Shown piece by piece: positions 17,492 to 27,978 of a DNA stretch of 64,000 nt. The stretch is from contig CALDSR010000039.1 of NCBI GenBank assembly GCA_937924505.1, forward strand, positions 7,176 to 71,175, written 5' to 3'. Both the position numbers and the translations under genes were made by a program. The first letter of the stretch is position 1. Each line of letters opens with the position of its first letter. This DNA comes from an uncultured Granulosicoccus sp. (GTDB taxonomy: Bacteria; Pseudomonadota; Gammaproteobacteria; Granulosicoccales; Granulosicoccaceae). The notes below the pieces were generated by a model. The model was not told the DNA's origin. It saw only the letters and a program-made list of their open reading frames with translations, and made no database searches.

Positions 17492-17905
17492 ATGGCAGGT
17501 ACACAATATCGAGGCTCCGAGATTGATGATGTTGATCAGTTTCGTAAAGATGCAAAAGGTCTCGCCAGTGAACGAGAACAGGAGATCGGCCAGCACATTG
17601 GTTATCGCTATGACGTTAACCTTGTGCCGGACTACGAGCGAATTACACCGTTCCTGAAGCAATACATGGAAACCATGGGCTGGGATGATCTGAACTGGCT
17701 TGAGGATATCCATATGGGCTATGAAGAAGGCAATGCGGCTGTGTTTGATCGCAATATCAATGGCTGGGTGCGTATACCCGAGTCCATGGAATTGCCGGAT
17801 AATCAACAGGATCGTGACATGATAGCCCGCGAACTTCTTATCAAGTTTCAGATGTCTGACAGACATCCGATGGTGAATTTGCGCAAGGCATACATGAAGT
17901 TCTGA
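17492..17905 (+). CDS. Unknown acidic 137-residue protein within the methylamine operon
   Basis: Not recognised. A soluble, strongly acidic protein (start MAGTQYRGSEIDDVDQFRK; charged segment EREQEIGQHIGYRYDVN; aromatic motif MGWDDLNWLEDIHMGYEEGN). No signal peptide, membrane helix or cysteine is seen. It has a ribosome site (GGAGAG) before ATG 17492 and sits 21 bases after mgsC and 19 before the next gene, so it is certainly part of the gmaS-mgs-tmo operon. It could be a small subunit or assembly factor of the Mgs/Gma enzymes, or part of the otherwise missing dimethylamine step. Both ideas are inference. Confidence 0.8.
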   Translation: MAGTQYRGSEIDDVDQFRKDAKGLASEREQEIGQHIGYRYDVNLVPDYERITPFLKQYMETMGWDDLNWLEDIHMGYEEGNAAVFDRNINGWVRIPESMELPDNQQDRDMIARELLIKFQMSDRHPMVNLRKAYMKF

Positions 17906-17924
17906 TTCAGGGTTAATTGTAATA

Positions 17925-18542
17925 ATGAGCGGTAACGAAACCATGAACGAAGTGGTTCAAGTGTTTGGTAAACGTCCTGTTGACCACGCCTTGAAAGATG
18001 CGTTCTTGCGTTGGCAATGCCGTGTTCGCCAGATGGCCATGCGTGAACGCGAAGGCCGCCCGGATGATGCCATCATGCCGGCTCTGACGTTGAATGGCGC
18101 GTCAGAGCCGATGGGGCATATCATTACCCTTATTTCGAAGTGGGGGGCGAATAGTCGAACGTCAGAGCTTAAACATGTTGTCAAAAGCATCAATGACCCT
18201 GCTCAGCGGCGTGACAAGGCCATCAGAATATTTTCAGAAACCTGGTATCAGCAGGCGCGTGAATTTTCTGACACCTTGACAGCGACCTTCCCACCCGACT
18301 CACTTGGTGCGAAATCCATTGTGGATGCCGGACAATGTACGCTTGCTTTCGATGCCTATAACCAGAATTTCAGCCTGCAATGCCAGCCCCGCAGGCTTTC
18401 GGAGAATCACCCGTTGTATCAGGCCACGTTGTGGCATAACCTGTTGTTCAATCCCAGCCTGCACCCCAAAACAGTCATTCTCGCTTTCGAACCGGACTGG
18501 GATAAGAGTAGCGCCATGCCACCGATTGGTGGGGCGCATTAG
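17925..18542 (+). CDS. Unknown 205-residue soluble protein within the methylamine operon
   Basis: Not recognised. Cytoplasmic by appearance. N-terminal FLRWQCRVRQMAMREREGRP is basic; conserved-looking middle GHIITLISKWGANSRTSELKH; later ETWYQQAREFSDTLTATFPP and CQPRRLSENHPLYQATLWHN. Three cysteines, no CxxC cluster and no obvious nucleotide-binding loop. It lies between the 137-residue unknown and the TMAO importer on the same strand. ATG 17925 lacks a strong ribosome site; an internal ATG at 17943 is an alternative. Co-occurrence with methylamine genes in other genomes would test whether it is a pathway component. Confidence 0.78.
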   Translation: MSGNETMNEVVQVFGKRPVDHALKDAFLRWQCRVRQMAMREREGRPDDAIMPALTLNGASEPMGHIITLISKWGANSRTSELKHVVKSINDPAQRRDKAIRIFSETWYQQAREFSDTLTATFPPDSLGAKSIVDAGQCTLAFDAYNQNFSLQCQPRRLSENHPLYQATLWHNLLFNPSLHPKTVILAFEPDWDKSSAMPPIGGAH

Positions 18543-18609
18543 AAAGCGAGTTTTTGATTGATATTAATGACGTCGTTTTTGTTGTTTTATCTACTTGGAG
18601 GAGTTGAAT

Positions 18610-19563
18610 ATGAACAGATTTAAGAAAACGTTTAGCGTAGCTGCCGTATCTGCGCTGCTATGCGGAAATGCGATTGCTGCAGTGCCGGAGTCTGACGATC
18701 CTATTCTGATTGTTCAGAATAACTGGACCAGTCAGCTCGTATTGTCACACGTGGTCGGTAATGTGTTGATGGAAATGGGTTACGAGGTTGAGTACACGCC
18801 ATCAGACTCACAGTTGCAGTTCACGGCAATCGCCAACGGCGATATGCACTTTCAGGTAGAAGCGTGGGAAGGTTCGATGAAGTCTGCGTTTGAAAAGGCA
18901 TTGGAAGAAGGCATGGTTGATGCGGGATCACACTCTGCTGAGACGCGGGAAGAATGGTGGATTCCAAACTACGTGCTGGAAACCTGCCCTGAGGCGACAA
19001 ATTGGGAAGGCTTGAATGCTTGTGCTGATCAGTTTGCGACAGCGGAAACATCACCAAAGGGACGTTTTGTAGGGCCACCAGCTGACTGGGGCAAGAACTA
19101 TTCTGAGCGCGTCAAAGCGTTGCAAATGGATTTTGAAGCGATCAACGTCGGGCAGGCGGCCACCTTGTGGGCCGAATTGCAATCCGCCTATGATCGTAAA
19201 GAACCAATCGTTCTGTTCAACTGGACGCCGAATTTTATCGAGTCGAAATTCGAAGGTACGTTTGTGGATTTTCCAGAGCCGGTCGCTGAGTGTGAAAGCG
19301 ATGCTTCCTGGGGACCAAATCCGGACATGACAGGTGATTGCGGTGCACCTCGTTCTGGTTGGCTGAAAAAAGCTGCGTGGAGCGGCCTTGCTGACAAGTA
19401 TCCAGCGGCCTGGAGTGTCATGCAGAAAATCGATTTCTCCAATGCGCAAATCGCCGCGGCTGCCTTGTTGGTAGACGTTGATGGTCTGTCGCCTGAGGAA
19501 GCGGCTGAAAAGTGGGCTGCTGACAATGCGGATGTCATTACGGGCTGGTTGAACGCCTCTTGA
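18610..19563 (+). CDS. tmoX: TMAO/betaine-type ABC substrate-binding protein
   Basis: A 317-residue periplasmic binding protein of the OpuAC type. Signal peptide MNRFKKTFSVAAVSALLCGNAIA, likely cut before VPE. The mature part is rich in tryptophans that could form an aromatic cage for quaternary amines (NNWTSQLV, EAWEGSMK, REEWWIPNY, LFNWTPNF), as in choline, betaine and TMAO binders. ATG 18610 is chosen by GGAGGAG seven bases upstream. First of the three transporter genes; because tdm and tmm follow, TMAO is the best substrate (TmoX), though betaine or choline cannot be excluded from the sequence alone. Confidence 0.85.
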   Translation: MNRFKKTFSVAAVSALLCGNAIAAVPESDDPILIVQNNWTSQLVLSHVVGNVLMEMGYEVEYTPSDSQLQFTAIANGDMHFQVEAWEGSMKSAFEKALEEGMVDAGSHSAETREEWWIPNYVLETCPEATNWEGLNACADQFATAETSPKGRFVGPPADWGKNYSERVKALQMDFEAINVGQAATLWAELQSAYDRKEPIVLFNWTPNFIESKFEGTFVDFPEPVAECESDASWGPNPDMTGDCGAPRSGWLKKAAWSGLADKYPAAWSVMQKIDFSNAQIAAAALLVDVDGLSPEEAAEKWAADNADVITGWLNAS

Positions 19564-26429: not shown

Positions 26430-26557
26430 GTTATCAAGATGATGAAAAAATAATCATACGATGGAGCGCGCGTGATAACCATGCACAACAGTATTATTGC
26501 GAAAACTTTCTTTGTGGGGGTTCGCGGATGTAAATTGCGCTCAAAAAAAATAGATAG

Positions 26558-26573
26558 AAATCTGAAAAGATTT
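26558..26573. promoter_or_regulatory. Palindrome upstream of tmm
   Basis: AAATCT (26558-26563) GAAA AGATTT (26568-26573): a perfect six-base inverted repeat 65 bases before tmm, in a 208-base AT-rich spacer between the FAD gene and tmm. It could be an operator or a small 5' hairpin, and suggests that tmm has its own control. Confidence 0.3.
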
Positions 26574-26637
26574 TGAAACAGGTATGTGTAAAACAATCTA
26601 CGGTAACGACACTGAATAGCAACAGGAGATATCTTTT

Positions 26638-27978
26638 ATGGGTAAGCGAGTAGCAGTCATTGGGGCTGGCCCCTCAGGTCTTGCTCAATTGAGGGCATTC
26701 CAGTCAGCGGCAAAAACAGGTGCAGACATTCCTGAAGTTGTCTGTTTTGAGAAGCAGGATAACTGGGGTGGTCTTTGGAACTATACCTGGCGAACCGGGC
26801 TTGACGAATATGGCGAACCGGTACACGGTTCAATGTACCGTTATTTGTGGTCCAACGGACCCAAGGAAGGGCTTGAGTTTGCTGATTATTCTTTCGAAGA
26901 GCACTTTGGCAAGCAGATCGCCAGCTACCCACCGAGAGCAGTTCTTTTTGACTATATTCAAGGCCGGGTCAACAAGGCTGATGTCCGCAAGTGGGTCCGT
27001 TTTCGTACACCGGTACGGCACGTAAGTTTTGATGACAAAACCGGCCAGTTCACCGTCTCCGTACATGATCTTGTCAACAACAAGGAATATGCAGAGAAGT
27101 TCGATCATGTCGTGGTTGCCAATGGACATTTTTCGACGCCCAATGTGCCATCGTTTGATGGCTTGGATCGATTCAATGGTCGAGTATTACACGCGCATGA
27201 TTTTCGTGATGCGGTGGAATTCAAGGGCAAGCATGTACTGATCATCGGCACCAGCTATTCGGCTGAAGACATTGGATCTCAGTGTTGGAAGTATGGGGCC
27301 AAATCTATCACGGTCAGTCACCGAACCGCGCCTATGGGTTACAAATGGCCGGACAATTGGCAAGAAGTGCCTTTGCTGACATCGGTTTCAGAAAACACTT
27401 GTACCTTTAAAGACGGTAGCACCAAAGAGATTGATGCGATTATTCTTTGTACCGGATATCAACATCACTTTCCGTTCATGACGCCGGAACTGACGTTAGA
27501 GACCGCTAATCGACTGGCTACTGCCAATTTATATAAAGGTGTGGTATTCAATGATAACCCGGCACTTTTTTATCTGGGTATGCAGGATCAGTGGTATACG
27601 TTCAATATGTTTGATGCACAAGCCTGGTATGTGCGTGACGTTATCATGGGCCGTATCGATCTTCCCGATGCCAATACAATGAAACAAGATGTCATCTCGC
27701 GTGTCGCTGCGGAAGATGCGCTTGAAGACGACTATGCGTGTATTGCCTATCAGGGTGATTACGTCAAAGAACTGATTAGTGAAACTGACTATCCGACTTT
27801 TGATGTCGACGGCGCTAACGAAGCGTTTTACCAGTGGAAGAAGCACAAGAAAGTAGACATCATGGCGTTCCGCAACAATTCCTATAAATCAGTGATTACA
27901 GGAACCATGGCGCCCGTGCATCACACTGCGTGGAAAGACGCGATGGATGATTCGCTCGAGAGTTATTTGCAGAACTGA
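26638..27978 (+). CDS. tmm: Trimethylamine monooxygenase (flavin-containing monooxygenase)
   Basis: A 446-residue class B FMO oxidising trimethylamine to TMAO with NADPH and O2. Visible: FAD motif GAGPSG (9-14), FMO signature FNGRVLHAHDF (179-189, fits FxGxxxHxxxF), NADPH motif IIGTSYSAEDIG (202-213). Tyr207 is at the same number as the cofactor-positioning Tyr of characterised marine Tmm, and EKQDNWGGLWNYTWRTG is typical of bacterial Tmm. AGGAG lies eight bases upstream of ATG. Follows tdm and the FAD gene but after 208 bases, so probably has its own promoter. Dimethyl sulfide is a known side substrate of the family. Confidence 0.93.
   Translation: MGKRVAVIGAGPSGLAQLRAFQSAAKTGADIPEVVCFEKQDNWGGLWNYTWRTGLDEYGEPVHGSMYRYLWSNGPKEGLEFADYSFEEHFGKQIASYPPRAVLFDYIQGRVNKADVRKWVRFRTPVRHVSFDDKTGQFTVSVHDLVNNKEYAEKFDHVVVANGHFSTPNVPSFDGLDRFNGRVLHAHDFRDAVEFKGKHVLIIGTSYSAEDIGSQCWKYGAKSITVSHRTAPMGYKWPDNWQEVPLLTSVSENTCTFKDGSTKEIDAIILCTGYQHHFPFMTPELTLETANRLATANLYKGVVFNDNPALFYLGMQDQWYTFNMFDAQAWYVRDVIMGRIDLPDANTMKQDVISRVAAEDALEDDYACIAYQGDYVKELISETDYPTFDVDGANEAFYQWKKHKKVDIMAFRNNSYKSVITGTMAPVHHTAWKDAMDDSLESYLQN

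Follow-up and report, generated by a model that had tools for sequence, protein, structure and literature searches.

The DNA analyzed here, a 64,000-nucleotide stretch of contig CALDSR010000039.1 from an uncultured Granulosicoccus sp. (hereafter the window), carries a trimethylamine island in which no enzyme converting dimethylamine to methylamine was recognized. We propose that the product of one small gene in this island, ORF205 (17925..18542, + strand; 205 residues), is an alternative dimethylamine demethylase, or the catalytic part of one, replacing DmmDABC. We give this proposal a probability of about one half, and infer the substrate, the reaction, the cofactor and the dimeric state. Two further candidates are encoded in the same run of genes, namely ORF137 (17492..17905, + strand), a highly conserved protein of the gmaS-mgsABC cassette, and a DAO-type FAD enzyme (25080..26429, + strand); ORF205 was favored because it alone shows the pattern expected of a Dmm replacement.

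The original prediction, made from this DNA, described a trimethylamine island without a dimethylamine step, and this description held. The trimethylamine monooxygenase Tmm and the trimethylamine N-oxide (TMAO) demethylase Tdm were both identified over their family cut-offs, and counterparts of the importer, GmaS, Mgs and Mgd were found in the window. Its statement that neither dmm genes nor a dimethylamine dehydrogenase could be recognized was likewise borne out within the 64 kb: tblastn searches with DmmA, DmmB and DmmC from two related loci (L102 and L107) gave no match in the window at E ≤ 1e-3, with strong matches obtained at a positive control locus (L103), and DmmD matched only GcvT domains, namely those found in Tdm and the sarcosine-oxidase-like alpha subunit. 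A Pfam scan of 37 proteins from the window revealed no PF00724 (Oxidored_FMN), which we take to be the old-yellow-enzyme-type FMN domain expected for a dimethylamine dehydrogenase.

The distribution of ORF205 was compared with that of the Dmm system, using PF22289 (the C-terminal domain of DmmA) as marker. In L102, the PF22289 protein is found together with a GcvT protein, an oxidoreductase and a PF11927 protein, representing DmmDABC. PF11927 itself, which the DmmC of L102 matches at 228.5 bits, proved too broad to serve as a marker, being present in 25 of 50 ORF205 genomes; of six PF11927 loci inspected, only that from Roseovarius nubinhibens (L082) came from a genome with DmmA. PF22289 was therefore used instead. 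The first sample comprised 198 genomes from the family of Ruegeria sp. HKCCD8929, with Tdm counted only above the 1100-bit cut-off, and contained DmmA in 27 genomes, ORF205 in 19, Tdm in 46 and ORF137 in 19. No genome encoded both DmmA and ORF205, and the 46 Tdm genomes were divided into 25 with DmmA, 18 with ORF205 and three with neither. In one of these three (G149), ORF137 and a nitrilase gene reach the end of the contig where ORF205 would follow (L154). Five additional genomes (G111, G120, G172, G192 and G202) encode only a Tdm relative scoring 1004–1053 bits and have neither DmmA nor ORF205, and a looser cut-off would thus raise the last group to 8 of 51. In the second sample, 289 alphaproteobacterial genomes in which DmmA was searched for in the Tdm genomes and nine further ORF137 genomes, Tdm was found in 24, ORF137 in 27 and ORF205 in 23. 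The 24 Tdm genomes encode ORF205 (17), DmmA (3) or neither (4), and never both; these numbers include three sub-cut-off Tdm rows (G266, G416 and G450), without which the 21 Tdm genomes are split into 17, three and one, respectively. A third set consisted of the whole genomes of 50 of the 80 named ORF205 loci considered below, of which only R. nubinhibens encodes DmmA. Pooled, 86 distinct ORF205 genomes were tested and DmmA was found in one, and the distribution of the two systems is thus near-exclusive in the genomes sampled. Tdm and ORF205 occur together without DmmA in 35 genomes from the two samples. We consider it very unlikely that a conventional Dmm system or dimethylamine dehydrogenase is encoded elsewhere in the Granulosicoccus genome. 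Such an explanation is favored by the view being limited to 64 kb and by R. nubinhibens, which illustrates that both systems can coexist, but it is opposed by DmmA occurring in only one of the 86 ORF205 genomes, a count that tests for DmmA and not for dimethylamine dehydrogenase.

The genomic context also links ORF205 to methylated amine turnover. In the window, GmaS, MgsABC, ORF137, ORF205, a three-part importer, Tdm, the DAO-type enzyme and Tmm are encoded by a same-strand run (12710–27978) with gaps of only 21 bases between mgsC and ORF137 and 19 bases between ORF137 and ORF205, and with overlaps of 4 bases between the permease gene and tdm and 14 bases between tdm and the DAO gene; this spacing is what an operon would be expected to show. 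Related loci were collected by scanning one-per-species genomes with the ORF205 alignment, and the best 80 of 201 confirmed stretches were considered, including loci from Granulosicoccaceae, Roseovarius, other Rhodobacteraceae and SAR116. The recurrent order was gmaS-mgsABC-ORF137-(nitrilase)-ORF205-(tmm)-tmoXWV-tdm-(DAO), with parts absent in many loci. The nearest recognized gene within 1.5 kb before ORF205 encodes a nitrilase in 55 of the 80 loci, ORF137 in 17, another protein in four and an amidotransferase in one, ORF205 not having been placed by the script in the remaining three. The next gene on the same strand is tmm in 22 loci, tmoX in 16 and tdm in seven, with the remainder made up of other genes (20), contig edges (8), amt (2), gntR (1) and a tmoX on the opposite strand (1). 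In one genome (G511), ORF205 is located directly behind tdm on a contig other than that of the cassette. The nitrilase-family amidase of the related loci (e.g. L026:9156–10001) belongs to PF00795 and is nearest to deaminated glutathione amidase, below cut-offs, and no match to it was found in the window; it might serve to repair a glutamyl-amide side product.

The other two candidates fit this context less well. The view that ORF137 itself performs the dimethylamine step or forms an essential component of the enzyme that does, also in SAR11, would agree with its never occurring together with DmmA in the 198 genomes and with its presence in a SAR11-like genome without DmmA (G450), but appears highly improbable given that its extreme conservation (84–91% identity in most of the 120 homologs listed) and its position point to methylamine metabolism. 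It adjoins mgsC in all 24 neighborhoods seen whole from the 27 ORF137 genomes of the second sample, and is thus regarded as part of the methylamine cassette, and nine of these 27 genomes lack Tdm. Structure prediction gave only a weak AlphaFold model (pLDDT 75), for which fold comparison with the PDB returned no hit at E ≤ 0.001; by sequence, the PDB likewise yielded nothing credible. As for the DAO-type FAD enzyme, the first bases of its gene lie within tdm and its family (amine/amino-acid oxidases) could suit dimethylamine oxidation, but the gene was counted by script directly behind tdm in only about 13 of the 37 loci with room to see (L016, scored as lacking it, shows a DAO match and may be a fourteenth). 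Most ORF205/Tdm islands thus have no DAO gene there, and among solved structures its sole relative at E ≤ 1e-5 is a glycine oxidase (7e-8), making this enzyme a most doubtful candidate for the dimethylamine step. The suggestion that an unfamiliar protein built into the operon performs the step is supported for ORF205 by its distribution among genomes, its gene order and its predicted fold, and is not supported for ORF137, which tracks gmaS-mgsABC even in genomes lacking both ORF205 and DmmA.

With 827 homologs found for ORF205 and at least 8000 scored for ORF137, both are considered real genes, although the window proteins match nothing in Pfam (E up to 1) or NCBIfam (E up to 0.01). An ORF205 alignment was built from the window protein and 98 others, taken from 138 non-redundant sequences, and Pfam searches over these 99 members gave nothing significant, with one member hitting PF12766 at E 0.11. 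A further profile search extended the number of homologs to 1641, with no Pfam domain in the 120 listed, and no credible match was found by sequence in the PDB. Neither ORF205 nor ORF137 had a match in the plasmid collection, and the open-access literature searched (subscription papers and preprints being outside its scope) did not name ORF205 or a split-barrel dimethylamine enzyme. The AlphaFold model of ORF205 was of high confidence (pLDDT 92.9), and its top PDB fold matches were FMN-binding split-barrel proteins sharing approximately 10% sequence identity; the confident model thus places the predicted fold of ORF205 in the FMN-binding split-barrel superfamily, with no significant match to the sequence families of this fold in Pfam (99 members) or the PDB. 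From this, a mechanism can be envisaged in which ORF205, probably dimeric, adopts an FMN-binding split-barrel fold and its bound flavin (or haem) would oxidize dimethylamine at one N-methyl group, giving an iminium. Hydrolysis of the latter would give methylamine and formaldehyde, and the methylamine would enter the adjoining GmaS-Mgs-Mgd route. Somewhat more tentatively, ORF205 could be the founding member of a family of N-demethylases, each a split-barrel flavin or haem protein encoded by a single gene, that perform the dimethylamine step in many alpha- and gammaproteobacteria without DmmDABC and yield methylamine, in which case published estimates of how often the step is missing would be too high.

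A tree was constructed from 71 Tdm proteins, with the window entered as an ORF205 row whose Dmm status is known from the 64 kb alone. Genomes with Dmm and with ORF205 were found intermixed: two Dmm genomes (G059 and G213) are located beside the window and two others (G148 and G402) are basal to its clade, while one ORF205 genome (G029) is placed within the main Dmm clade. Several exchanges between the two systems are thus seen along the tree, and the mixed positions indicate that Tdm lineages persisted while the dimethylamine solution changed.

Several observations weigh against ORF205 being a dimethylamine demethylase. The labels on the Tdm tree are clustered, requiring fewer changes than any of 500 shuffles, and only six independent pairs are available (none changing in the same direction, a mean of 4.3 in opposite directions, median p 0.125), and the tree evidence is therefore only suggestive. 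Split barrels serve many other roles, and approximately 10% identity does not fix a substrate. R. nubinhibens carries both the DmmA and the ORF205 system, and 24 of the 50 ORF205 genomes in the third set encode a PF11927 protein and no DmmA, where a PF11927-family haem demethylase is possible. One genome without DmmA (G005; L081) encodes a DUF3445/HODM-type (PF11927) protein scoring 274 bits, above the DmmC of L102. Furthermore, the ten Dmm loci include six with gmaS/mgs in view, and these carry distant relatives (29–53% identity), and since this is another gmaS/mgs lineage, the swapped unit may be a whole methylamine-dimethylamine cassette; the mutually exclusive units may accordingly be whole cassettes and not single genes. 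Lastly, all 23 ORF205 genomes among the 289 encode ORF137, six of them lack Tdm, and among the 27 ORF137 genomes the association of ORF205 with Tdm does not reach significance (p 0.09), so that ORF205 could instead serve methylamine use.

These last observations underlie the main rival explanation, in which ORF205 assists the ORF137-type methylamine cassette as a redox accessory, e.g. an electron carrier or an enzyme of Mgs or Mgd quality control, with an unlinked gene providing the dimethylamine step or dimethylamine being excreted. Besides the strict association with ORF137 and the different gmaS/mgs lineage of the Dmm loci, it would account for those ORF205 loci, several from Roseovarius, that have no tdm within 10 kb. 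The cassette does not, however, appear to need ORF205, as this is absent from four of the 27 ORF137 genomes, three without Tdm (G325, G439 and G471) and the SAR11-like G450, which has gmaS-mgsABC. An accessory role also fits poorly with G511, where ORF205 accompanies tdm apart from the cassette, and it leaves the 35 Tdm genomes with ORF205 and without DmmA unexplained. We consider it rather unlikely, and retain the demethylase reading of ORF205.

The remaining point against a demethylase role concerns SAR11, all representatives of which are reported to lack dmmDABC (Lidbury et al., 2017, PMC5520151). The genome G450 (1.2 Mb, 34% G+C), SAR11-like in its size and G+C content, encodes Tmm, Tdm, the importer, GmaS, MgsABC and ORF137, and neither DmmA nor ORF205. 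ORF205 was found in none of the 97 genomes of the order of G450, an empty search that is weak on its own and in which Tdm was not counted; the same query does reach relatives of 25–33% identity in other small alphaproteobacteria (G274 and G292). The SAR11 strain HTCC1062 is reported to grow weakly, without dmm, when TMAO is the sole nitrogen source, and an isoenzyme of DmmDABC has been suggested (PMC8918994). Together with the lack of ORF205 in the SAR11-like order, this growth implies either a third route in some bacteria or a step that needs none of these genes. ORF205 would hence not close the SAR11 gap, for which a third route would be needed. In G450, a 117-residue protein of no recognized family is encoded between tdm and an mgdA-like gene (L122:9210–9560) and is a possible lead for the dimethylamine step in SAR11. 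From the scarcity of dmmDABC, Lidbury et al. (2017, PMC5520151) argued for a dimethylamine bottleneck in marine bacteria that affects aerosol precursors, and the count behind this bottleneck would change if bacteria with Tdm indeed had a second dimethylamine enzyme, unrelated to the first. For dmmABC, the loss of dimethylamine and the gain of methylamine have been followed by ion chromatography (PMC5520151). A Ruegeria pomeroyi dmmA deletion mutant exists (PMC13390433).

The reading frames of the island were confirmed at the coordinates given here. The GmaS- and MgsABC-like genes (12710–17470) are located directly upstream of the span initially described (17492..27978), as part of the same run, and all genes of the run are on the + strand. 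The gmaS-like glutamine synthetase (12710..14206, start codon uncertain) contains Gln-synt_C and is named from its position before mgsABC, its gln_synth_III NCBIfam match being below cut-off. It is followed by mgsA-like (14245..15240; glutamine amidotransferase domain, GATase_6/7), mgsB-like (15228..16097; GXGXG domain, PF01493) and mgsC-like (16115..17470) genes, the last resembling the glutamate synthase large subunit with a partial NCBIfam match below cut-off and 88–96% identity to mgsC genes at related loci. The importer, for which TMAO as substrate is inferred from context, comprises a tmoX-like periplasmic binding protein (18595..19563; OpuAC, 166 bits), a tmoW-like ATPase (19699..20724; proV subfamily TIGR01186, over cut-off) and a tmoV-like fused permease (20721..22718) with two BPD_transp_1 stretches and TIGR03416 over cut-off. 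Tdm (22715..25093) combines DUF1989 and GcvT domains and scored 1214.7 bits against NF053776 (equivalog cut-off 1100), and Tmm (26638..27978) scored 832.3 bits against NF058570 (equivalog cut-off 675). The DAO-type enzyme between them matches PF01266 (177.9 bits), with none over cut-off among the 25 NCBIfam matches listed. On the − strand, an mgd-like cluster (4109..9366; sarcosine-oxidase-like N-methylglutamate dehydrogenase) encodes SoxB (687 bits) and SoxA (1287 bits) over cut-off and a SoxG-like protein below (63.6 bits), the assignment being based on these three subunit types. An AraC/DJ-1-type regulator (9335..10315, + strand), GbdR-like below cut-off and sharing 30% identity with the regulator that adjoins dmmDABC at L102, is a possible functional counterpart of TmaR. 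A GntR-type regulator (11804..12490, − strand) is divergent from gmaS, and a gene of this type was found upstream in 49 of the 80 related loci.

Beyond tmm, an Amt ammonium transporter is encoded on the opposite strand (29365–30750), and amt genes of this kind occur in 19 of the 80 related loci. Farther away, the window encodes a hybrid histidine kinase (34272–36767) whose top NCBIfam match is TorS-like (447.9 bits, below the 676.5 cut-off), and an amine- or imino-acid-dehydrogenase-like pair (45554–48381) in which an FAD/NAD oxidoreductase bearing a sarcosine-oxidase A3 domain adjoins a second DAO enzyme. A small ribosomal-peptide biosynthesis cluster may be encoded at 55668–57948, where genes for a DUF2063 protein and then a DoxX protein come after that for an MbnB/TglH/ChrH-type RiPP modification enzyme (341.7 bits to PF05114). 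A Pfam match to influenza C NS2 (62956–63705), with no single stretch passing, is probably a repeat or low-complexity artefact.

Compared with the Roseobacter/SAR11 TMAO/TMA (trimethylamine) island (tmm, tmoXWV, tdm, gmaS-mgsABC and mgdABCD), the window contains counterparts of these parts, represented for Mgd by the three subunit types mentioned above, but it differs in the absence of dmmABC and in having ORF137 and ORF205 in the operon, where most relatives also have a nitrilase-family amidase. In its predicted fold, ORF205 resembles the PNP-oxidase-like split barrels (3db0, PNPOx 1wv4, general stress protein 26, Rv2074 and HugZ/HutZ/HupZ), from which it is set apart by the low sequence identity, the lack of a significant Pfam match and a new genomic setting, its cofactor being predicted only. 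ORF205 and DmmA appear unrelated, as hhalign of the 99-member alignment against one DmmA sequence gave a probability of 0.1, although the DmmA of L102 is also 205 residues long, and none of the 99 ORF205 members matched PF11927 (the HODM_asu-like haem subunit). Relative to DmmDABC of Ruegeria pomeroyi (PMC5520151), ORF205 would occupy the same position in the pathway, within a gene island of the same type and with the same proposed net conversion of dimethylamine to methylamine, but as one small protein instead of a three-part enzyme.

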